This document shows positions 2,276 to 29,778 of a DNA stretch of 64,000 bases, piece after piece (positions within the stretch are counted from its first letter, which is position 1; every line of letters starts with the position of its first letter). The stretch comes from Actinomycetota bacterium. Its GTDB lineage: Bacteria; Actinomycetota; CADDZG01; WHSQ01. Under the pieces are notes generated by a model. That model had not been told where the DNA came from and searched no databases. It saw nothing but the letters and a program-made list of their open reading frames with translations. The position numbers and the translations under genes are program-made. The stretch is taken from positions 554,036 to 618,035 of the forward strand of contig JAUJNI010000002.1 in the NCBI GenBank assembly GCA_030446465.1, in the 5' to 3' direction.

Positions 2276-3504
2276 GGGCCGAGATCCTAGGAGTCGGGAC
2301 CGAGTTGCTCCTCGGTCAGATCGCCAACACCAACGCTCAGAGGATCTCCTCGGCGCTCGCCTCGATTGGGGTCGATGTCTTGTGGCACACCGTTGTGGGG
2401 GACAACCTGGAACGTATCGAGGCGGCCGTGACGACCGCGCACTCTCGTGCCGAAGCGGTCGTTATGACCGGGGGGCTCGGGCCGACTCCCGACGACATCA
2501 CCGCGGAGGCGGTCGCGAACGCGCTACGGCGCCCGCTCGATCGGGACGAGCGGCTCGCCGCCACGATCCGATCGATCTTCGAGGACTTGGGGCGGGTCAT
2601 GCCGGAGGAGAACCTCAAGCAGGCCGATCTGCCCCGGGGCGCCACCCCCATAGAGCCAGAGGGCACGGCTCCCGGCTTTTATATGGAACAAGCAGGCTCC
2701 ATCGTCTTCGCTCTTCCCGGCGTGCCGTGGGAGATGGAGGCGATGCTGGTCAAGACCGTGCTCCCTGTGTTGCAACGGCGGGGCGGGGACTCGGTCACCT
2801 TGAGCCGTCACATCCTGGTGGTCGGCCTGGGGGAGTCGCACACGCACGAGAAGATCAAGGACCTCGTTGCCGGCCAGACGAATCCAACGATCGCCTTCCT
2901 GGCGAGCGGGGGCCAGGTGCGCGTCCGGGTGACCGCCAAAGCGACATCGGAGCAAGAGGCCCTGGCGCTGATCGCCCCTGTTGAAGCGGGGCTGAGAGAG
3001 CGTCTCGGTGCCTCGGCGGTGCAAGGAGAGGGCGGGCCGCTCGGGGAGATCCTCGGACAGCTCCTTAGGGCACGGGGCTCGACGGTCGCAGCCGCAGAGT
3101 CGCTGACGGGCGGGCTGCTCGGCGCGGAGCTCAGCCGTGCTCCGGGTGCCAGCGACTACTTCCTCGGTTCGCTGGTGTGCTATTCGGCGGAGTCAAAGAG
3201 GGAGGTTGCCGGACTCTCAGAGGCGGTCCTTGGGGGGCCGGGCCCGGTTAGCGAACAGGCAGCTCGCGCATTGGCCGAGGCCGCAGCGCGCAAGTACGGC
3301 GCGGACCTGGGTCTTTCCACTACGGGGGTTGCCGGCCCCGATGAGCACGACGGCAAACCGGTCGGCACGATCTTCGTGGGGGCGGCTCTCGGGGGGCGGA
3401 CGGAGGTAAGAAAGGTGCGTGGTTACGGCGATCGCTCCAACGTCAGGGCCATCGCCGTGACCGCGGCCCTCGACCTGGGCCGCCGGCTGCTGGATCAATC
3501 ATGA
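2272..3504 (+). CDS. cinA: CinA family protein (nicotinamide-nucleotide amidase), inferred CTG start
   Basis: 410 residues from the proposed start. The N-terminal half is the molybdopterin-binding-like (COG1058) domain beginning RAEILGVGTELLLG. The C-terminal 150 or so residues are the PncC amidase domain (AAESLTGG with the catalytic serine), which deamidates nicotinamide mononucleotide in NAD recycling. The family normally starts M-K/R-A-E-I; here the aligned codon is CTG 2272-2274, overlapping the pgsA TGA as CTGA, with AAGGAG at 2258-2263 eight bases upstream. The only canonical alternative, GTG 2218, would add 18 residues inside pgsA and lacks that spacing. The 3' end overlaps thpR by ATGA. 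Confidence 0.88.
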   Translation: MRAEILGVGTELLLGQIANTNAQRISSALASIGVDVLWHTVVGDNLERIEAAVTTAHSRAEAVVMTGGLGPTPDDITAEAVANALRRPLDRDERLAATIRSIFEDLGRVMPEENLKQADLPRGATPIEPEGTAPGFYMEQAGSIVFALPGVPWEMEAMLVKTVLPVLQRRGGDSVTLSRHILVVGLGESHTHEKIKDLVAGQTNPTIAFLASGGQVRVRVTAKATSEQEALALIAPVEAGLRERLGASAVQGEGGPLGEILGQLLRARGSTVAAAESLTGGLLGAELSRAPGASDYFLGSLVCYSAESKREVAGLSEAVLGGPGPVSEQAARALAEAAARKYGADLGLSTTGVAGPDEHDGKPVGTIFVGAALGGRTEVRKVRGYGDRSNVRAIAVTAALDLGRRLLDQS

Positions 3505-4118
3505 AGGAGGCCGAGCGGCCGCTGCGCCTGTTCGTCGCGGTCGACGTGCCACTGGAGCAGCGGAGACTGCTGCAAGAGGCCGTCGAACCTCACAAGGAAA
3601 GCTTCAAGGGGGCACGCTGGACCGCGGTTGAAAGCCAGCACGTCACTCTCAAGTTCCTCGGGAACACACCGCTGAGCGCGATGGACGCTTTGAAAGAGGT
3701 TCTCGTCGCGCAGGCTTGTGCCGCTAGGCGTGGACCCGTTCGTATCTGGGAGCTTGGAGTGTTTCCCGGCATGACGAGAGCTCGAGTGCTGTGGGCGGGC
3801 CTCGACGATCCGGGCTCAGTGCTTCGATCGGTTGCCGAGGGACTCGACGTCGCCCTGGAAGAGCTCGGCTATGGCGTCGAGAAGCGAAGCTTCACGCCGC
3901 ACCTGACGCTGGCCCGGTTCAAGGCGCCCATCCGATTGGATGCCCCTCTTCCCGCTTTGCCGGTTGAGGATTTGGCTCCCTTCGATGTTGCCAGCATCGC
4001 TCTCTACTCGAGTCGCCTTCATCCGCACGGGGCGCGCTATGAGCCCGTCGCTACCTACGCCCTCGGAGGGGATGTGACGGTGCCCCGACGGGATGCAAAC
4101 GACGCCGCGCTGGGTTGA
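3501..4118 (+). CDS. thpR: RNA 2',3'-cyclic phosphodiesterase (2H family)
   Basis: 205 residues, typical for ThpR. Both HxTx motifs of the 2H phosphoesterase fold are present: H47-V-T49-L and H134-L-T136-L. The enzyme opens 2',3'-cyclic phosphate ends of RNA, and many members also show ligase activity in vitro. The ATG overlaps the cinA stop (ATGA), so the two are translationally coupled, and the cinA-thpR pairing just upstream of recA recurs in Actinobacteria. A second 2H protein lies at 15420. Confidence 0.88.
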   Translation: MKEAERPLRLFVAVDVPLEQRRLLQEAVEPHKESFKGARWTAVESQHVTLKFLGNTPLSAMDALKEVLVAQACAARRGPVRIWELGVFPGMTRARVLWAGLDDPGSVLRSVAEGLDVALEELGYGVEKRSFTPHLTLARFKAPIRLDAPLPALPVEDLAPFDVASIALYSSRLHPHGARYEPVATYALGGDVTVPRRDANDAALG

Positions 4119-4152
4119 CATCTGTGCACCTCACTAAAGGAGAAAGGCCCAC

Positions 4153-4638
4153 ATGAGCGCCGCCGTTCATCCCGACACTCGCATCGGACACGTCCACCTG
4201 AAGGTCTCGGACCTCGACCGCGCCGAGAGCTTCTATAGGGACGTGCTCGGGTTCTCGACGACGACCAGGTACGGAGACGCCGCGACGTTCATGTCGGCCG
4301 GCGGCTATCACCACCACATCGGGCTCAACACGTGGCATAGCAAAGGTGCAGCTCCGGCCCCCGTCAGCTCTGCGGGCCTCTATCACTTTGCGATCCTCTA
4401 TCCCAATCGGCGCGAGCTGGCGATTGCCGTCAAGCGAGTGCTGGATTCCGGCTGGGGCATCGACGGTGCGGCCGATCATGGGGTGAGCGAGGCGATCTAC
4501 CTCCACGATCCCGACCACAACGGCATCGAGCTCTATCGAGATCGGGACCGCTCCGAATGGTCGATTGCTTCCGACGGCTCCCTGGAGATGGGCACCGAGC
4601 CCCTCGACCTGCAGGACCTCCTTACCGAGGCTCTGTGA
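4153..4638 (+). CDS. VOC (glyoxalase/extradiol dioxygenase-like) family protein
   Basis: 161 residues forming a vicinal oxygen chelate fold: an opening GHVHLKVSDLDRAESFY strand-helix unit, then HHIGLN, and a closing DPDHNGIELY segment that supplies a metal-ligand glutamate. It resembles the N-terminal half of Bacillus CatE-like catechol 2,3-dioxygenases more than lactoylglutathione lyase. The substrate cannot be told from sequence. It has a good Shine-Dalgarno (AAAGGAGAAAGG) at about 4135-4147 and lies between thpR and trmB without overlap, so it may be a separate or readthrough unit. Confidence 0.8.
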   Translation: MSAAVHPDTRIGHVHLKVSDLDRAESFYRDVLGFSTTTRYGDAATFMSAGGYHHHIGLNTWHSKGAAPAPVSSAGLYHFAILYPNRRELAIAVKRVLDSGWGIDGAADHGVSEAIYLHDPDHNGIELYRDRDRSEWSIASDGSLEMGTEPLDLQDLLTEAL

Positions 4639-4656
4639 GGTCGACACCTTTGTTGC

Positions 4657-4819
4657 TACAATTGGTTTGTCAGGCGGCTTTGTCGAGGAAGTAAGCGATG
4701 CACGATCGTTCGAACAAGTCACCAGCTAAGCGGTGGATACCGAAGGAGCGTATCCACCGAATCTGAGGTTGACGAGATACAGCCTTAGGCCGTGGGTCCT
4801 CCTTCAGGGTCCACGGCCT
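4657..4819 (+). other. Structured leader with two strong hairpins upstream of trmB
   Basis: This 275-bp gap holds no gene. A -10-like TACAAT (4657-4662) is followed by a perfect 10-bp stem (4731-4740 with 4750-4759, 9-nt loop) and by a second stem (4787-4795 with 4811-4819) that extends through wobble pairs to about 14 bp. Neither is followed by a U-tract, so they do not look like ordinary terminators. About 95 nt separate the second hairpin from the trmB start. It could be a 5' UTR regulatory structure or a small RNA; I do not recognise the family. Confidence 0.4.
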
Positions 4820-4913
4820 TGTCGCGTCCGCACAAGCTCGAGCTCTTAGGCGCGCGGTTGGGCCGTGGTGATTCAGACCCGTCCCTTCTTCTTCTTTCGA
4901 CAAGGAGACCCGC

Positions 4914-5612
4914 ATGCCTCGGAGGAAAACCAGGCTCAACGCAGCCGCGCCCCATGAGCAAGTTCTCGAAAAGTACCTGCTGAAATTGTCCAACAGCGAG
5001 CTGTTCCACGACCCTGAGCGGTTCCCCAAGATGAGCTCGGCTTCTTGGTTCGGCAATGACCACCCCATGGAGTTGGAGGTGGGGAGCGGAACCGGGGAGT
5101 TCCTCTGCGCGCTGGCCCGCAAAGAGCCCGGCACGAACTTCGTCGGGATCGACGTCCACAAGAAGTCGTTACATAACGCGGCGGCCTTGGCCTCGTCGTT
5201 TGCCCTGCGGAACATCGTCTTCGTGAGCGCCGACTTCAAGCTGATGTACCCACTGCTCGCTCCCCAGTCGCTGCACTGCGTGTACCTGCACTTCCCCGAC
5301 CCCAATGTGAAACGCAAGTTCCGCAACCGACGGATCTTTTCGGAGCGTTTCCTCGATGAAGTGCACCGCGCCCTGGTCCCGAACGGCAGGCTCAGCGTCA
5401 TGACCGATCACAGGCCCTACTTCTTCGAGATGCTCCAGCTGGCCGAGCGTGACCAAAGGTGGAGCAAGGGGCACGCCGATCGGTATGTGGTGGGCTTCGA
5501 GCCCCTTGCCAAGTCGCGCTTCCAGCTCAGGTGGGAGCGTCACGGGCTGGCGACCTTGCGCTTCGAGCTGATCAAGGCCTCTGCAGCCTCCACGCGCGGA
5601 GGGATAGAATGA
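4914..5612 (+). CDS. trmB: tRNA (guanine-N7-)-methyltransferase TrmB
   Basis: 232 residues. The SAM-binding motif I reads ELEVGSGTGEFL, followed by VGIDVHKKSL, FVSADF, and the TrmB hallmark VYLHFPDPNVKRKFRNRR, then MTDHRPYF. The enzyme methylates G46 in the tRNA variable loop using S-adenosylmethionine. The ATG is preceded by ACAAGGAGACC. It stands alone between the structured leader and the recA control region. Confidence 0.92.
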   Translation: MPRRKTRLNAAAPHEQVLEKYLLKLSNSELFHDPERFPKMSSASWFGNDHPMELEVGSGTGEFLCALARKEPGTNFVGIDVHKKSLHNAAALASSFALRNIVFVSADFKLMYPLLAPQSLHCVYLHFPDPNVKRKFRNRRIFSERFLDEVHRALVPNGRLSVMTDHRPYFFEMLQLAERDQRWSKGHADRYVVGFEPLAKSRFQLRWERHGLATLRFELIKASAASTRGGIE

Positions 5613-17447: not shown

Positions 17448-20400
17448 GTGTCTCAGGCGGTCACACCCGCTCCCGGATCACGGGAGATCGATGCCGAGCT
17501 TCGGCTGAAGCGGCACTTCACAACCGAAGGCGTTCACCCCTACGACGAGATCGAGTGGGAGCTCAGGGACGCCGTCATCCAGAACTACCGCACCGGTGAG
17601 ATCGCCTTCGAGCAAAAGGGCGTCGAGATCCCGAAGTCGTGGTCCCAGAACGCCACCAATATCGCCGCCCAGAAGTACTTCCGGGGATCGCCCGGGACGC
17701 CGCAGCGTGAGCGCAGCGTCAAGCAGATGATCGACCGTGTCGTCAACCGCTACCACGAGGAAGGCCTCGCCCGCGGTTACTTCGGCGACGATGCCGAGGC
17801 CGCCATCTTCAAGGACGAGCTCACCCACCTGCTCGTCAACCAAAAGGCGGCCTTCAACTCACCGGTGTGGTTCAACGTCGGCTGGCGCCCGAAAGGCGAA
17901 GAGCAAGTGAGCGCGTGCCAGCCGTACGACGCCTTGGTGAGCACCCCTGCCGGCTTGATCCCCATCGGCAAGCTAGTGGAGGACGACGCGGTGGGGACCA
18001 AGGTGTATGACGCCGAGGGAATCACCAAGATCGTCGCAACAAAAGCGAACGGAACGAAGGAAGTTCTACGCATCACCACCAAAGCCGGCCATACGCTAGA
18101 CGTAACCGCGGATCACCTCGTGTGGAAACGGACGAGCGAAAAGGGGGGCCGTTTCACTCCGGCTGGTCAGTTGAAGCCGGGAGATGCGCTCGAGTGGCAC
18201 CGTCGCGAGTCCTACGGCGAGTCCGAGATCAACATCCGCGAAATCTCCGAGGCCGCGCTCGCCGGTTGGTTGCAATCGGACGGCTTCGTCGGCCGGTATG
18301 CCGGCACGAATAGGTCGCTGACGATTGAAGCGATGACCGTCAACGACGACGAGTTGGAGTGGGTCACCGGCGCGCTCAACGGGGTGTTCCCGGACGTCCA
18401 TCGACACGAGCGCAAGGTGGTTACACAGAATGAGGCGCTCGACTGCCGTCGCACGCGCCTCTACGGCAAACAACTTCAGCACTTCGTGGACAAGTGGGGG
18501 CTCATGGCGCGTGGCGTCGCCATGGAGGTCCCTAGTCACCTCTTTACTGCCCCCCTGCCGGTTGTGGCCGCGTACCTCAAGAGCATCTTCCAGGCTGAAG
18601 GCAGCGTGTCGGTTCGTGAGCGCACGGCTCGAATCAGTGTGGACATGATCTCGGAGCCCCTCATTCGAGGTATCCAGCACCTGCTGCTCCGCTTCGGCAT
18701 ATTCGCCCGGGTGAGCTTCAAGCCGGACAGTCGGAGCGACCGCAAGGGATGCTGGTCAATCGGTATCCAGACGGCTGGTGACCGGCGGATCTTTGCGGAC
18801 GAGATCGGCTTCGTCGACCGGGCAAAGTCCAAGAGAGTCGAGGACAGTTTGCTTCTGCCGGGCCTCGCCTCGCACCAGACCAAACAGCTCGAGATCGCTC
18901 GTATCGAGCCGTTAGGCGAAATGCCGGTCTACGACATCCAGACCGAGAGTGGGGAATACCTATCGGGCAACTTGCGGGTCCACAACTGCTTCATACTTTC
19001 GGTCGAGGACGAGATGCGCTCGATCCTCAACTGGTATGTCGAAGAGGGGCTGATCTTTAAGCACGGATCAGGGTCGGGGCTCAACCTCTCCAAGCTGCGT
19101 TCTTCGAGGGAGCACCTGCGTTCCGGAGGCACAGCGTCTGGCCCTGTCTCCTTCATGCGGGGCGCGGATGCCTCTGCAGGAACCATCAAGTCGGGTGGAG
19201 CCACCCGACGGGCGGCCAAGATGGTCGTACTAAACGTGGATCATCCTGACATCAAAGACTTCATTTGGTGCAAGGCACTCGAGGAGAAGAAGGCTCGTGC
19301 TCTGGGCGAGGCCGGCTTCGATATGGACCTCGACGGCAAGGACAGCCACTCGATCCAATACCAGAACGCAAACAACTCAGTTCGAGTGACGGACGAGTTT
19401 ATGCAAGCGGTGATTGAAGATCGTGACTGGGACCTCAAGGCTGTCACCACCGGCGAGACAATCGAGCGCTTGAAGGCGAAGGAGCTGTTCCGCGAGATCG
19501 CTCAAGCTGCATGGGAGTGTGCGGACCCCGGGATTCAGTACGACACCACCATCAACGACTGGCATACCTGCCCCAACACCGGCCCAATCACAGCAAGTAA
19601 TCCTTGTTCCGAGTTCCTTCATGTCGATAACTCATCTTGTAACTTGGCCAGCATCAATTTGTTGAAGTTTCTCGATGAGAACGACGACTTTGACATCGAG
19701 TCCTACAAGCACGCGGTCGAAGTTCTCTTCCTCGCACAAGAGATCTCTGTGGGTTTTGCGCACTATCCAACAGAGAAGATTCGAGATAACTCGCTGAGGA
19801 TGCGCCAACTCGGTCAAGGGGTTGCGAACCTCGGCGCCCTCTTGATGGCGATGGGACTGCCATACGACTCCGATCATGGACGCGCCGTTGCTGCGTCGCT
19901 TCAAGCCATTCAGACTGGCCATTGCTACGCCACTTCGGCTCGTATTGCGAAGCGCGTCGGCGCATTTGATGACTTCGATAGAAACCGCGATCCGATGCTT
20001 CGAGTTATGAACAAGCATCGCGACGCGGCTCATCAGATTCGCAGCGCTGTGGTGCCACCTGTCTTTCTTTCGGAGGCCACGCAAGTTTGGGATGAGGCCG
20101 TCAGTCTGGGCGAGATTTATGGGTATCGAAACTCTCAAGCCGTAGTGGCCGCGCCGACCGGCACCATTGCGCTCTTGATGGATTGTGACACGACGGGCAT
20201 CGAGCCTGACCTGGCGCTGAAGAAGACCAAGAAGCTCGTCGGCGGCGGCACCATGTCGATCGTTAACCAGACCGTTCCCAAAGCACTTCGCAAGCTCGGC
20301 TATGACGACGAACAGATTTTGGACATCGTCGCCTACATCGACGGGAACTCCCACGTCGTTGGCGCCCCCCACTTGAAGCAGGAGCACTTGACGGTCTTCG

Positions 20401-21284
20401 ATACGGCAATGGGCGAGAGAAGCATCCATTACATGGGGCATATCAAGATGCTTTCTGCCATCCAGCCGTTCCTGTCCGGATCGGCTAGCAAGACTGTCAA
20501 TTTGCCAGAGAACGTCACGGTCGAAGACGTCGAGCACGCCTACATCGAAGCGTGGCGTCTGGGAGTTAAGTGCCTCGCCCTTTACCGGGACAACTGCAAG
20601 ATGGGCCAGCCTCTTTCAGTCACGAAGAAGGGTGACAACAAGGCTGACATCCCCAAGACGGCTCTGCCGGAGCCGGTCCGACGCAGGCTCCCCAAGAAGC
20701 GCACCTCAAAGACGATCAAGTTCCGTGTCGCAGACACCGAGGGCTACATCACGACGGGCGAGTTCCCCGATGGCACCGTGGGCGAGATCTTCCTCAAGGT
20801 CGCGAAGCAGGGCTCGACGCTCGCCGGAATCATGGATGCGTTCGCCATCTCGATCTCGATGGGACTCCAGTACGGCGTGCCGTTGTCTGCCTACGTCAAG
20901 CAGTTCGTCAACACCCGCTTCGAGCCCTCGGGCATGACGGATGACTCCGACTTCAGGATCGCAACCTCGATCCTCGACTACGTCTTTAGGGTGCTGGCCC
21001 TTGAGTACCTGAGCCCATCCGAGCGTCACGCTCTCGGCATCAGGACCGCGGGGGAACGGCAACTCGAGATCGAGACCAAGCTCGAATCCGGCGACGGTCA
21101 AGCCACCAACGGCCACGGGAATGGCAACGGTCATCCATCGGATGAATCCGTCATCGTGCTGGGCCCGGTGGCGAGTGCTCACAACGATGCTTTGCCCTTC
21201 TGTGGACAGTGCGGCGTGCAGATGAACCCCGCGGGATCTTGCTTCGCATGTCCCTCGTGCGGATCAACGAGCGGCTGCTCCTAA
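17448..21284 (+). CDS. nrdJ: Adenosylcobalamin-dependent (class II) ribonucleotide reductase with intein
   Basis: 1278-residue precursor. Residues 157-513 are an intein; the spliced enzyme is about 921 residues. The N-extein ends QVSA and the C-extein begins CFILSVEDEM, so splicing restores the SACFI active-site cysteine. Later motifs are NPCSEFLHVDNSSCNLASINL and PTGTIALLMDCDTTGIEP. The C-terminus carries CxxC pairs (CGQCG, CPSCG), the usual redox tail. Class II enzymes reduce ribonucleotides using B12 and need no oxygen. GTG 17448 follows GGAAGGGGG. Bases about 19370-20640 appear less GC-rich at third positions than the rest. Confidence 0.93.
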   Translation: MSQAVTPAPGSREIDAELRLKRHFTTEGVHPYDEIEWELRDAVIQNYRTGEIAFEQKGVEIPKSWSQNATNIAAQKYFRGSPGTPQRERSVKQMIDRVVNRYHEEGLARGYFGDDAEAAIFKDELTHLLVNQKAAFNSPVWFNVGWRPKGEEQVSACQPYDALVSTPAGLIPIGKLVEDDAVGTKVYDAEGITKIVATKANGTKEVLRITTKAGHTLDVTADHLVWKRTSEKGGRFTPAGQLKPGDALEWHRRESYGESEINIREISEAALAGWLQSDGFVGRYAGTNRSLTIEAMTVNDDELEWVTGALNGVFPDVHRHERKVVTQNEALDCRRTRLYGKQLQHFVDKWGLMARGVAMEVPSHLFTAPLPVVAAYLKSIFQAEGSVSVRERTARISVDMISEPLIRGIQHLLLRFGIFARVSFKPDSRSDRKGCWSIGIQTAGDRRIFADEIGFVDRAKSKRVEDSLLLPGLASHQTKQLEIARIEPLGEMPVYDIQTESGEYLSGNLRVHNCFILSVEDEMRSILNWYVEEGLIFKHGSGSGLNLSKLRSSREHLRSGGTASGPVSFMRGADASAGTIKSGGATRRAAKMVVLNVDHPDIKDFIWCKALEEKKARALGEAGFDMDLDGKDSHSIQYQNANNSVRVTDEFMQAVIEDRDWDLKAVTTGETIERLKAKELFREIAQAAWECADPGIQYDTTINDWHTCPNTGPITASNPCSEFLHVDNSSCNLASINLLKFLDENDDFDIESYKHAVEVLFLAQEISVGFAHYPTEKIRDNSLRMRQLGQGVANLGALLMAMGLPYDSDHGRAVAASLQAIQTGHCYATSARIAKRVGAFDDFDRNRDPMLRVMNKHRDAAHQIRSAVVPPVFLSEATQVWDEAVSLGEIYGYRNSQAVVAAPTGTIALLMDCDTTGIEPDLALKKTKKLVGGGTMSIVNQTVPKALRKLGYDDEQILDIVAYIDGNSHVVGAPHLKQEHLTVFDTAMGERSIHYMGHIKMLSAIQPFLSGSASKTVNLPENVTVEDVEHAYIEAWRLGVKCLALYRDNCKMGQPLSVTKKGDNKADIPKTALPEPVRRRLPKKRTSKTIKFRVADTEGYITTGEFPDGTVGEIFLKVAKQGSTLAGIMDAFAISISMGLQYGVPLSAYVKQFVNTRFEPSGMTDDSDFRIATSILDYVFRVLALEYLSPSERHALGIRTAGERQLEIETKLESGDGQATNGHGNGNGHPSDESVIVLGPVASAHNDALPFCGQCGVQMNPAGSCFACPSCGSTSGCS
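17916..18986 (+). other. Intein with LAGLIDADG homing endonuclease, inside NrdJ
   Basis: 357 codons from Cys (TGC 17916) to Asn (AAC 18984-18986), followed by the +1 Cys of the C-extein. The N-terminal splicing block is CQPYDALVSTPAGLIPIG, block B is GHTLDVTADHLVW, and the C-terminal block is GEYLSGNLRVHN. Two LAGLIDADG-type helices, LAGWLQSDGFVG and YLKSIFQAEGSVSV, mark a homing endonuclease between them. All residues needed for splicing (C1, penultimate H, terminal N, C+1) are present, so splicing should work. It is inserted exactly before an active-site cysteine, a typical conserved homing target. Confidence 0.93.
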
Positions 21285-23480: not shown

Positions 23481-23552
23481 GCGGGCGTGGCTCAGTGGTA
23501 GAGCATCACCTTGCCAAGGTGAGGGTCGCCAGTTCGAATCTGGTCGCCCGCT
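23481..23552 (+). tRNA. tRNA-Gly(GCC)
   Basis: Complete 72-nt cloverleaf: acceptor GCGGGCG/CGCCCGC, D-arm GCTC/GAGC, anticodon loop TTGCCAA (GCC) on a TCACC/GGTGA stem, T-arm with TTCGAAT, discriminator T. CCA is not encoded. A TACAAT -10 lies at 23465-23470. A strong terminator follows 8 bp after. It borders the accessory region to the right. Confidence 0.96.
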
Positions 23553-23556
23553 CGGA

Positions 23557-24090
23557 TTAAAGGCCCTGGTCACAGGGCCTTTTTCCTTCGACGTGGACAT
23601 GGTCTTCGCACGGGTCGCCAGCCTCCTGCTCTATCTCCTCGAGGGAGTCATGGACGATCGGCTCGGGCTTGGTATCGGGCTCGGTCAACCCGAATGGGTT
23701 CTCGACGGCATATCTAGCGTTGTAATGCGCCACGAGCTCGGGAGCATCGCTGGGAGAAGCGATGCGGAGGAAGCCGATCTCCCACGTGATGCCGTTGCCG
23801 CCGCCTTTGTCCAGGAAGTAGTCCCAGAGCTGTTTTGGCTCCGCCGACCAATACGTGTCTACCCAGCCCTCGACCCACTGAGGGTCGCGGCCCGGTTCTT
23901 TGACCAGAGCGCCGTCGATGCGCCACGGACCGTGGAACGAATCGATGGGACGCTCGATGAGTAGCAGCTCGGTGGTGAGCTCCGGGTTCGGAGAGTCGAC
24001 GAATAGCCCTTGATGCTGCGGGACGCTCCCGTCGTGCGTGAGCTCCATCGGTTCGGTCTTCGTGAACTGAAGATCATCGGGGTTGGTCAT
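23557..24090 (-). CDS. Unknown protein, last gene of candidate defence operon
   Basis: 177 residues, acidic, with no recognised domain. It has strands such as TTELLLIERPIDSFHGPWRIDG and a WxxW-rich centre (WVEGWVDTYWSAEPKQLWDYF). The ATG at 24090 lies within the 3' end of the preceding gene (17-bp overlap). Its last residues (EGKRPCDQGL) are encoded by the tRNA-Gly terminator hairpin, so the native end may have been lost or re-made when the segment came next to the tRNA gene. Confidence 0.6.
   Translation of the reverse strand: MTNPDDLQFTKTEPMELTHDGSVPQHQGLFVDSPNPELTTELLLIERPIDSFHGPWRIDGALVKEPGRDPQWVEGWVDTYWSAEPKQLWDYFLDKGGGNGITWEIGFLRIASPSDAPELVAHYNARYAVENPFGLTEPDTKPEPIVHDSLEEIEQEAGDPCEDHVHVEGKRPCDQGL
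23559..23585 (+). terminator. Intrinsic terminator after tRNA-Gly
   Basis: AGGCCCTG (23561-23568), loop GTCA, CAGGGCCT (23573-23580), then TTTT. Preceding A residues make it usable on the minus strand too, where the last gene of the adjacent operon reads its final codons through it. Confidence 0.88.
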
Positions 24091-24556
24091 CACTTCTCCT
24101 CTCGGTCGCCACGAGTCGCATCCCGAGGCAATCCCCCTCTGTATAGAAGGCTTCGACCACGTAGTTGCTCGCCTCGACATCGACCACGTATCCATTCTCG
24201 ATGTCTCCATGGAACGGGTCCCACACGGTGCAGGCTCCGTTCGGAAGCGCCAGGGTCGTCAACCTGTTCCAGCTGCCCTCGCCGTTGTCATCTAGCTCGT
24301 CTACATCAGTAGTCCAACAGAGCCGTATCGAAACAACGTTGCCCTGACCGTCGCGCTGCACCTCTACCGGCACGTTCTCATCGGCTTCAGTGAATGCCGC
24401 GACCACCGCGACGCCATTTGCAGTCGCATCGATCACGCGGTTGTCAATGTCTGTGGCCTGTAACGCCTCGAACTGCTCAGCGGCGGGGACCGACGTGTCC
24501 GCGATAGCCAGGTAGCTGTCGTGCCCAACCCACCCCAGGGTCGCCCACTCGTTCAT
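24074..24556 (-). CDS. Unknown acidic protein in candidate defence operon
   Basis: 160 residues, strongly acidic and probably mostly beta, opening NEWATLGWVGHDSYLAIAD. No known motif. The ATG at 24556 overlaps the stop of the metallo-beta-lactamase gene as ATGA, and its 3' end overlaps the next gene by 17 bp. Tight coupling implies function with its neighbours; an inhibitor or immunity-like role is only a guess. Confidence 0.6.
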   Translation of the reverse strand: MNEWATLGWVGHDSYLAIADTSVPAAEQFEALQATDIDNRVIDATANGVAVVAAFTEADENVPVEVQRDGQGNVVSIRLCWTTDVDELDDNGEGSWNRLTTLALPNGACTVWDPFHGDIENGYVVDVEASNYVVEAFYTEGDCLGMRLVATERRSDDQPR

Positions 24557-25800
24557 ACCTCCCACCACTCGCCGTCGTCGTGGAGCACCACGTTGGCGAA
24601 GTGGTCCGCGAACCGGTTGGCTGCGAACGAGTGGATCGGGACCAGGCGCTCCGGCGCGACGGCCTCTGCGAGCTTCTTGAGATCATCCACGTAGGCGTGG
24701 CCCGACGCGTGGTGGACCTTTAGGGGGATCGCGTGCTTCGCTAGGAAGTCCTTGTAGGGCTTCGAGTTAGCGCGCTCCAAGTAGCCGGGCCACTGCGACC
24801 ACACCGCGCAGGCGCCTTCGAGACAGTCGGCGCGCTCCAGATCGCGCGCCATGCTCATCCGGAAGGTCATCAACAGCTCACCTCGCCGCTCGGGGAGGGC
24901 CTCAGGGAAGATGCGATGGGCTTTGTCGGGCAGGAGGTCGAAGCTCTCGTCCTCCCTGATCTGCCGACGCAGGAAGTACGGGACGTAGACCAGGAACTGT
25001 TCCCACCCGGGCTTTGGGACCGTCTCCCGTCCCGTCGCGATGGCCATCCGCGCGGTGAGTAGATCGACGACGAGGGTGTGCCCCGTCCGGCGTGCCGCCG
25101 AGTACATCGAGCACATCCGGTCGATGCTCTGCGAGGAGTAGGTGGCGAGCACCATGCCTTTGGTCTCCCTCACCGTACGGGCGAGGTCGGCTCTCAGATC
25201 CTCCTCGCTGATTCCAGGAGCGGGAGCCGGGTCAGCGGTGACGTTGGTGCCTTCCATAAGCATGACGTCCACTTGAGGGGGAGGCTTGCGGAGCATCTCC
25301 TCGAAGATTGCGCGCTTAGGCCCGTGACCTTGAAGGTCTGCGGAGTAGAAGAGACGTCGCCCATCGGCTTCGATCAGCAATGAGTAGGTGTCGAACGCGT
25401 TGTGATCGTTGAGGAAGGGGGTGATGGTGAAGGGGCCCACCTCAAGCAGCTCGCGGTGGAGCAGGTGGCCGGCTGGGGTGATGTCGACACCGGCCTTCGA
25501 GTAGATGCGAGCCGCTGCCCGCAGGATGTCGGCCGCGCCCTTCCCGATGTAGATGGGGACGTTCGGGGAGACCTGCTCGACCAGTCCCCAGTGATCCTGG
25601 TGGCCATGAGAGATGAATAGACCCAGCAGGTCTGGATCGTCAGCGGCCGCCAGTCCAGCCACATCCGGGAGGGGAACGATCTCATCCGCGGCGGCCTCCA
25701 GTGGGCGTCCCACATCGAGCACGATGCGTTTTTCTTGCGCCGCGACCTCGATGCAGTTACCGCCGATCTGCTTCGCCCCGCGGTGGATTCGAACCTTCAC
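24553..25800 (-). CDS. RNase J-like metallo-beta-lactamase (beta-CASP type) nuclease
   Basis: 415 residues. The zinc motif H65-G-H67-Q-D69-H70 is intact; further metal-site residues lie in NDHNAFDTY (D132, H133) and FYSADLQGHG (D155). The C-terminal HHASGHAYVDDLKKLAEAVAP plus VPIHS matches the RNase J/beta-CASP closing motifs. It is shorter than housekeeping RNase J (about 550 residues) and lacks its C-terminal domain, so it is probably a specialised RNA or DNA nuclease. The GTG start immediately follows the stop of the PD-(D/E)XK gene with no spacer. Confidence 0.8.
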   Translation of the reverse strand: MKVRIHRGAKQIGGNCIEVAAQEKRIVLDVGRPLEAAADEIVPLPDVAGLAAADDPDLLGLFISHGHQDHWGLVEQVSPNVPIYIGKGAADILRAAARIYSKAGVDITPAGHLLHRELLEVGPFTITPFLNDHNAFDTYSLLIEADGRRLFYSADLQGHGPKRAIFEEMLRKPPPQVDVMLMEGTNVTADPAPAPGISEEDLRADLARTVRETKGMVLATYSSQSIDRMCSMYSAARRTGHTLVVDLLTARMAIATGRETVPKPGWEQFLVYVPYFLRRQIREDESFDLLPDKAHRIFPEALPERRGELLMTFRMSMARDLERADCLEGACAVWSQWPGYLERANSKPYKDFLAKHAIPLKVHHASGHAYVDDLKKLAEAVAPERLVPIHSFAANRFADHFANVVLHDDGEWWEV

Positions 25801-26697
25801 CTAAGCACCATTCAGATTTGAATCGATCCACTCTTCGAATCTTGGCATTTCCGATATGGCGGGAAGGCGGCATGGTTCTGCAGTGAAGTCAGACCAGTTG
25901 TGAACACGAACATCCAGGGTTGCGTACTCGGTCGCCTTGCGTTTCGCCGCTGTGTGGAGTCGCTCGGTGAGTCCCTTACTGGTGGTGCCCGCATCGAAGC
26001 CCGACATGAGAAGAAGCAAGAGCGGGGCTTTGTCAGCCCGAAGCGCATCGAGTTCGTGCTGGACGACCCCCAACGTTGCCTTCTGCTCAAAGACATGTGG
26101 ATACGTGGCTTGAATGGAGGGATTATTGGCTAGCAATCCCTGATATCTGAGAAGTTGGGGAAAGAAGTCGCCGGCGATCTCTTTGTTGGCAAGAAGCTTC
26201 ACTTCCCCTAAGACCATCTGCTGTTCAGTGGCGTCGTAGAGGAGTAGGTCCAAGCGTTCTTTCTTCCAGCCAGGTTGAACGATCTGGCGGTCCAAGATCA
26301 CGACAGGGGCATCGAAAGCACTGTTGTCACGGATGATCGCGGATTCGAAACTCCGTTCATCCGTTCCTGGCTTGGAGCGGCGTTGCTGGAGCCAGGCAAT
26401 CGCTGGAGCGATGTTAGTGGGGTCGATCTCATCGAGATCCATGGTTCGTTTCGGCCAGAACTCTGGGAAGTCCGTATCCGATTGCGACCCGAGGTGTATC
26501 TGCTTTGCCCTGCAGTGGATCTGGAAGAGGTTGTAACCGCCGTAGTACACATCCACGTAGCTTCCTCTGAGCTGAAGGTCGAGCTCTGTCCGCTCTTTGA
26601 CCTCTTCGAGTATGTGAATCAGAACAGGATGAGAGAGGAAAAGCCTCACGTCCTCCGCCCAGAGACGCCTCCTGAACACTTTCGCCGGTTCGCTCAT
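25801..26697 (-). CDS. Putative PD-(D/E)XK nuclease-like protein
   Basis: 298 residues. A core resembling the PD-(D/E)XK fold runs E118, D150 (KKERLDLLLYD), then E165-x-K167 (MVLGEVKL) and a following QLLRYQ helix. It would cleave or bind nucleic acid using a divalent metal. The family is not one I can name. The ATG at 26697 overlaps the stop of the upstream gene (ATGA) and the stop abuts the RNase J-like gene. Two predicted nucleases in one coupled operon suggest defence or conflict. Confidence 0.65.
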   Translation of the reverse strand: MSEPAKVFRRRLWAEDVRLFLSHPVLIHILEEVKERTELDLQLRGSYVDVYYGGYNLFQIHCRAKQIHLGSQSDTDFPEFWPKRTMDLDEIDPTNIAPAIAWLQQRRSKPGTDERSFESAIIRDNSAFDAPVVILDRQIVQPGWKKERLDLLLYDATEQQMVLGEVKLLANKEIAGDFFPQLLRYQGLLANNPSIQATYPHVFEQKATLGVVQHELDALRADKAPLLLLLMSGFDAGTTSKGLTERLHTAAKRKATEYATLDVRVHNWSDFTAEPCRLPAISEMPRFEEWIDSNLNGA

Positions 26698-27257
26698 CCT
26701 TGCGCCCCTTCCTGGGTCTTCCTTACCGCCTCGATCGTGTCCTCCACGAAGGCGATCACGTCTGTCTCTGCGATCTCTCCTGCTCGCCGTCGCGCCCGTT
26801 TGATGAGTGTTTCGTCTTGGGCCGCCCACAGGACGTTGCCGAGTGCCTCCCGATTGCGCTTGTACATGTCGCTGGGTCTCCGGGCCGAGTAGTGCGATAT
26901 GTCAACGAGCACGTCGACCAGCTCTTCGAGCTGATTAGCCCGGGGAGGCTCTCCGGTAGCCGAGCGGTAACTGACCGCGGTGCTGGAGATTGCCAGGCAC
27001 AGCTCGTACCAGAACATCCCGTCGTCATAGAGGTCGTGGTTAGAGAAGAAGTGTCCGTGGTCCCGGACCTTGGCTAGTCCGTCGCGGGCGAGCTCTGCCA
27101 GCTCGTCCCAGCTGTTCCGGTCGAGCTCCTGGAACCTGGCGAAATGCAGATTGTCGTCGGTAGGTCGGGCGTGACTGACGAGCCTGGCCAGTCTTCGTTT
27201 GAGGTTCCCGAAATCCTCGGCTACAGCCGCTGTTTCGCCCGCTCTGTCCTCGCTCAT
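26694..27257 (-). CDS. Unknown helical protein, first gene of candidate defence operon
   Basis: 187 residues, predicted mainly helical, with LKRRLARLVSHARPTDDNLHFARF near the start and LEELVDVLVDISHYSARRPSDMYKRN in the middle. No domain recognised. The ATG at 27257 opens the minus-strand operon, diverging from the ArdC unit and its leader. Sensor, regulator or structural roles are all open. Confidence 0.6.
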   Translation of the reverse strand: MSEDRAGETAAVAEDFGNLKRRLARLVSHARPTDDNLHFARFQELDRNSWDELAELARDGLAKVRDHGHFFSNHDLYDDGMFWYELCLAISSTAVSYRSATGEPPRANQLEELVDVLVDISHYSARRPSDMYKRNREALGNVLWAAQDETLIKRARRRAGEIAETDVIAFVEDTIEAVRKTQEGAQG

Positions 27258-27364: not shown

Positions 27365-27483
27365 AGCGCCGTCCGCTCCTCCGTCAACCGCACGCTGCGC
27401 GTCCATGGATGCTCGCTCGCCTTCGGCGACGGTTGACCTCGTCGACTAGGGGACGGCGCTTGTGCCTCCGGCTCGGAAAGCCG
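27365..27483 (+). ncRNA. Repeated multibranched leader, copy 1 (ardC operon)
   Basis: Outer stem 27365-27374 with 27451-27460 (10 of 10 bp). Inner stem 27383-27390 with 27430-27437 (8 of 8). Two apical hairpins follow (a self-complementary GCGTCCATGGATGC, and CGCC-TTC-GGCG). A 5-bp hairpin (27469-27473 with 27479-27483) lies 10 nt before AGGAGG. The same architecture recurs at 29644 and 33444 with compensating base changes, so it should act as RNA in the 5' UTR, probably on translation. No known Rfam family is recognised. Confidence 0.7.
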
Positions 27484-29643: not shown

Positions 29644-29778
29644 AGGCCCGCCGCTCCTTCACGCAACCGCCCGCTGCGCGTCCATGGATGCTCGCTTGCC
29701 TTCGGCATCGGTTGCGCTTCGTCACTGATGGCGGGACCTGGTCACTAGGCGTCAGAACGGCAAGGCGCCGGAGGCGCC
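29644..29778 (+). ncRNA. Repeated multibranched leader, copy 2 (ssb)
   Basis: Outer stem 29644-29652 with 29730-29739 (9 bp, one bulged A at 29736). Inner stem 29662-29669 with 29709-29716 (8 of 8). The first apical hairpin is identical to copy 1; the second is TGCC-TTC-GGCA where copy 1 has CGCC/GGCG. A hairpin GGCGCC-GGA-GGCGCC (29764-29778) precedes AGGAGG (29785-29790). The inner stem differs from copy 1 at two positions on both strands, preserving pairing. Confidence 0.7.

Follow-up and report, generated by a model that had tools for sequence, protein, structure and literature searches.

Metallo-beta-lactamase (MBL) and PD-(D/E)XK nucleases, the two enzyme classes considered here, are already familiar in immunity. 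Among the latter, the RecB/Cas4-like nucleases carry their motifs in the order E...D...E-x-K...QxxxY. Among the former, trypsin-MBL (HamM-type) nuclease-protease pairs are swapped among the Hachiman, Avs, Lamassu, and DRT systems, and HamM itself, a ComEC-like DNase without activity on RNA, is switched on by a trypsin-like protease (PMC12799240). For the beta-CASP proteins, a histidine in motif C is the mark of the RNA-specific members, a motif map is available for MTH1203, and the structurally solved EF2904 has no assigned function (PMC3095777). The locus described here, which lies in a 64,000-nucleotide stretch of DNA from an Actinomycetota bacterium (contig JAUJNI010000002.1; hereafter the window), places a member of each class side by side. 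On balance we lean towards regarding these two genes, g2 and g3, as the conserved core of a mobile two-nuclease module not described before; judged from sequence, its most likely task would be the inactivation of nucleic acid from invading phages or plasmids. A defence module is probable because g2-type and g3-type genes are carried jointly on mobile DNA by widely different bacteria.

The original prediction described five overlapping minus-strand genes as a candidate defence system, and the layout is as it claimed, with respect to start and stop codons as well as to all four junctions. The operon's first gene, g1 (26694..27257; 187 aa; ATG 27257 to TGA 26694), shares an ATGA overlap with g2 (25801..26697; 298 aa; ATG 26697 to TAG 25801), which meets g3 (24553..25800; 415 aa; GTG 25800 to TGA 24553) at a zero-base junction; g4 (24074..24556; 160 aa; ATG 24556 to TGA 24074) follows with another ATGA overlap, and g5 (23557..24090; 177 aa; ATG 24090 to TAA 23557) overlaps g4 by 17 bp. 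For each gene the annotated frame is the best-scoring one by window codon usage, and third-position GC content (GC3) is coding-like at 0.64-0.81, with g2 (0.64) the least host-like. The tRNA gene said to adjoin the operon is a plus-strand tRNA-Gly(GCC) (23481..23553) that ends four bases from the last base of g5, the 3' end of which lies within a hairpin with a 10-bp stem (AAAGGCCCTG-TGAC-CAGGGCCTTT). The neighbours were also named correctly, as genes for an ArdC-N/M78 peptidase, SSB, a PIN_4 protein, and an RNase H-like protein were identified. Only g3 is recognised among the five proteins by family searches, and PHROGs likewise matches g3 alone; g1, g4, and g5, which had been described as lacking a recognised domain, indeed match no model of Pfam, PADLOC, or PHROGs, and NCBIfam gave no convincing hit for them.

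The g3 protein is an RNase J-like MBL/beta-CASP/RMMBL hydrolase (Lactamase_B_2, 3e-11; RMMBL, 3e-5), in which the predicted HxHxDH signature (H65-x-H67-x-D69-H70) and RNase J C-terminal motif, the latter as the RMMBL match, are both present. All of the motifs that define beta-CASP MBL nucleases were found, namely MBL motifs 1-4 (D29, H65/H67/D69/H70, H133, and D155) and beta-CASP motifs A-C (E183, H368, and H390), each invariant across 18 family members and arranged and spaced like motifs 1-4 and A-C in MTH1203. Motif C separates RNA types, with His, from DNA types, with Val; as g3 has His (H390), it is predicted to act on RNA. Its best PDB match is EF2904 (2az4), at 2.2e-17 by sequence and 2.7e-45 with a profile of 18 relatives, and the family profile next matches RNase J, followed by CPSF73 and Cas14.

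The g2 protein has no model of its own in Pfam, NCBIfam, PADLOC, or PHROGs, and its family gives no significant Pfam PD-(D/E)XK match, one member touching PDDEXK_9 at 0.0079. Nevertheless, the catalytic D...(D/E)-x-K and upstream acidic helix residue by which PD-(D/E)XK proteins are defined are present as D150, E165, K167, and E114, within a core (E114, D136, D150, E165-x-K167, and Q181-L-x-x-Y185) that we designate type A PD-(D/E)XK-like; an R-x(6)-Y-x-x-G motif precedes it in the N-terminal region. When g2 was aligned with ten relatives, each 17-30% identical to it, R44, Y51, G54, E114, D150, E165, K167, and P225 were kept in 11/11 members, including the three residues singled out in the original prediction (D150, E165, and K167), while the QLxxY residues Q181 and Y185 were kept in 10/11. 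A held-out HMM recovers g2 at 3.7e-21, and contig scans with g2, the MBL protein of locus L037, or A3 as query gave no match. The fold assignment rests on motifs because the AlphaFold models of g2, built from 4 and 5 sequences, are unusable (mean pLDDT 36 and 35); the secondary structure predicted in the model of pLDDT only 35 (H114-124, E132-140, E146-155, E160-168, H178-190, and E226-232) has an element order compatible with an alpha-beta-beta-beta-alpha-beta core. Given its QxxxY PD-(D/E)XK motifs, g2 probably acts on DNA. The notion of two likely nucleases in tight coupling is supported by these results, as both proteins carry complete catalytic motifs and their frames adjoin directly.

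Conservation of gene order, proposed as a check on the original prediction, holds for the pair, which is encountered repeatedly in different phyla as well as on mobile DNA, but not for the five-gene order. Relatives of g3 were gathered by g3 homology alone, blind to partner, from 13/397 genomes of the phylum (the window's own included), four GTDB contigs, ten plasmids, and eight viral contigs; near-identical copies (one viral contig and one R. phaseoli plasmid) and a distant clade of one genus (23-25%) were left out. The resulting 30 loci span actinobacterial-type MAGs, Chloroflexi, Fermentibacterota, Bacteroidota, plasmids, and prophages, and in 22 of them a PD-(D/E)XK-like gene stands within 0.8 kb of the MBL gene. 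Fourteen of these partners belong to the g2 family (type A) and eight, one of them by a weak assignment, to a second family (type B) with an invariant E...D...E-x-K. When the longest ORF is taken as the reading frame, the two genes overlap or are separated by no more than 30 bp in 19/22 pairs, and in 21/22 they are co-directional; both gene orders occur. Held-out HMMs recover 11/11 type A partners (E 5e-12 to 7e-46) and are weaker for type B, for which the L054 assignment fails (E 0.74). The remaining 8/30 MBL loci have neither a type A nor a type B partner; L044, for example, has a metallophosphoesterase and L045 nothing recognised.

The association also holds in the reverse direction. On plasmids, an MBL gene adjoins the g2-family gene in 7/7 records, a count that includes two near-identical R. 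phaseoli plasmids and the query itself, and in the window's own phylum an MBL gene lies beside the g2-family gene in 4/5 genomes. In the fifth genome (G020) the g2-family gene is broken into three frames (L009 9427-10318), which reflects either decay or a sequencing frameshift, and no g3 relative was found there at E 1e-20. The pairing of g2-type and g3-type genes across phyla and mobile DNA is, in sum, well supported. Partner-type labels change 12 times on the MBL tree, with the two families interleaved, and therefore partners have been lost, gained, or exchanged. Common descent of types A and B was considered and is not supported, as a profile comparison matched them (E 0.012, probability 3.6%) only in the D...E-x-K region.

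The mobility of the pair is evident from its surroundings. Relatives occur on plasmids with relaxases, among phage structural or terminase genes (L055, L058, and L052), and beside Tn7-like TniB/TniQ genes (L040). In the window's family, the tRNA-Gly(GCC) next to lexA-nrdJ-nrdR-dut is an integration hotspot (L082 504-9439, L083, and L084): one genome (G014) has a tyrosine integrase beside the tRNA and an exact 49-bp repeat of the tRNA 3' half about 8.8 kb away, another (G002) has an integrase at the hotspot, and a third (G011) has a remnant and a 45-bp repeat, such that att repeats (45-49 bp) are found in 2/3 family genomes with the hotspot. The window has no second att copy of the tRNA-Gly repeat, and no integrase was recognised among the genes scanned near the operon. 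WYL regulators lie near five relatives (L025, L041, L043, L044, and L056), and those of the BrxR type are known to co-localise with defence systems (PMC9122601). Likewise, type IV, type IIG, or GmrSD/HEC-06-like restriction genes, Cas3e, or McrC are found near L030, L037, L044, L023, and L043; because these neighbours were picked by eye, with no background rate, no enrichment of defence genes is claimed.

Two further features of the window were observed. A 51-nt repeat, bounded by inverted ends (CAACCG...CGGTTG) and containing a hairpin of the GCCTTCGGC type, is present at 27385-27435 and 29664-29714; its two copies (92% identical) are the only ones in the genome and bracket the ArdC-like and PIN genes together with a small ORF. 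It is possibly a cassette boundary or a shared control element, and a strict integron attC identity was rejected on visual inspection because of mismatched end boxes. In addition, the ribonucleotide reductase gene (17448-21284) contains an intein-like insert (...CQPYDALVSTPAGLIPIGKL ... VHNC...), which the family relative in L083 (...EEQVSACFILSV...) appears to lack.

A mobile setting invites the alternative that the pair serves nucleic-acid maintenance for mobile elements, with RNA or DNA processing in replication, transfer, or copy control in place of immunity. The window's pair lies near ArdC, SSB, and PIN genes, which are typical cargo of conjugative elements, and its relatives reside on relaxase-bearing plasmids and in prophages. 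However, the pair is present on only 10/72,556 plasmid records and on none of the annotated phage records, and since it accompanies numerous unrelated mobile elements and also occurs on chromosomes, it has no fixed link to any single type of replication or transfer; we consider a maintenance role unlikely.

The small genes around the pair bear on a second alternative. GIFW small proteins, so called for the motif at the start of the family, lie near the MBL gene on alphaproteobacterial plasmids (L037 6516-6992, L038 6549-6953, L039 8256-8630, and L045 6555-6998); the family, which has no Pfam model, is also found on many plasmids that have no MBL gene, among them plasmids of Acinetobacter, Alteromonas, and Roseomonas. 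Searches of plasmid records placed g1, g4, and g5 on no plasmid. Among 199 genomes, g1 has two relatives, both in one other genome, and g5 has none; no relative of g4 was found. In L065 (6798-8170), an unrelated D...E-x-K protein is followed after 11 bp by one of the g1 relatives, with a NucS/DUF5655-like gene nearby, an arrangement that is possibly a second nuclease pair. The sole trace of g1, g4, or g5 at other MBL loci is a weak tblastn match of g5 (E 0.002) near L027. At 3023-5449 of this locus, an ADP-ribosylglycohydrolase gene separates a stray copy of the first 43 MBL codons from the full MBL gene, an arrangement such as an insertion accompanied by duplication might leave behind. As g1, g4, and g5 are absent beside other pairs, barring that weak match, and from plasmids, a conserved g1-g5 unit was rejected, and with it the original prediction's five-gene system; the set is better described as a local assembly around the conserved pair, given that the three genes were not found with other pairs.

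In this alternative, one nuclease would be a toxin restrained by its partner or by g1, g4, or g5, in a toxin-antitoxin or abortive-infection module, and there are indications in this direction: overlapping frames suggest coupled expression, lineage-specific small partners vary by host (GIFW in four plasmid loci; g1, g4, and g5 in the window), the WYL regulators point to tight control, and a relative of g1 adjoins another D...E-x-K protein. Yet both core proteins retain all of their catalytic motifs, which a typical antitoxin would not, and none of the small partners is shared by all loci, which renders this alternative rather improbable, slightly more so than a maintenance role. That g2 and g3 are unrelated cargo brought together by chance in an island, as the unconserved five-gene order and the lack of partners for g1, g4, and g5 elsewhere might suggest, is very improbable, for their association is reciprocal, seen in 7/7 plasmid records and recurring in both orders, in several phyla, and with overlapping frames.

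Returning to the preferred reading, a mobile two-nuclease defence module, g2 and g3 would probably be translated in a coupled manner from a single message and act jointly, with g2 cutting invader DNA and g3 degrading RNA or trimming the ends made by g2; in this genome the pair is accompanied by three lineage-specific small genes (g1, g4, and g5) next to the tRNA-Gly that serves as an integration hotspot in relatives. A more ambitious version, to which we attach somewhat less than even confidence, is that an RNase J-like beta-CASP ribonuclease has been coupled to exchangeable PD-(D/E)XK DNases in a widespread, undescribed immune module directed against invader DNA and RNA, with host-specific small partners (g1, g4, and g5; GIFW proteins in Proteobacteria). 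In either form, an annotation of the type 'hypothetical plus MBL hydrolase' becomes a testable two-gene module.

The pair was also compared with the known systems closest to it. None of g1-g5 has a match in PADLOC-DB 2.0.0, ten proteins of related loci are likewise unmatched, barring one weak hit (0.0057), and no description of the g2-g3 pair was found in the open-licence literature searched or in PADLOC. The trypsin-MBL systems also join an MBL-fold nuclease to a second gene; however, g3 is of the beta-CASP/RMMBL type, and family searches detected no protease domain in g1-g5 that could stand for the trypsin-like protease, and identity with these pairs was rejected because the partner differs. 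The effector of type VII CRISPR-Cas, Cas14, is a defence beta-CASP nuclease that the g3 profile matches (8yhd, 2.2e-12), but Cas14 has 609 aa and no Cas protein models match g1-g5; a Cas14-type system was rejected as the partner genes differ. While g2 shares the E...D...E-x-K...QxxxY order of RecB/Cas4-like nucleases, it differs in its distinct N-terminal region and in having no significant Pfam PD-(D/E)XK match. RNase J, a bacterial 5'-exo/endoribonuclease, resembles g3 in its MBL core, in its RMMBL domain, and in having the RNA-type His in motif C; nevertheless, g3 scores 56.4 bits against a cut-off of 400 (TIGR00649) and 39.9 against 820 (RnjA), is about 140 aa shorter, and is sporadically distributed, and the possibility that it is the housekeeping RNase J was rejected on grounds of score, size, and distribution. 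RNase J proper combines a cut-off score with a full-length architecture including the C-terminal domain, a combination that g3 does not show; another MBL protein in the same genome, itself a weak match, has a longer, 573-codon open frame. The closest counterpart of g3 in the PDB, Enterococcus faecalis EF2904 (429 versus 415 aa), is a beta-CASP protein with a solved but orphan structure, and its family now gains a consistent genetic partner. If the pair is defensive, it would combine an RNA-type beta-CASP enzyme and a PD-(D/E)XK DNase in one system, and the PD-(D/E)XK families described here would extend the defence search models that now miss it.
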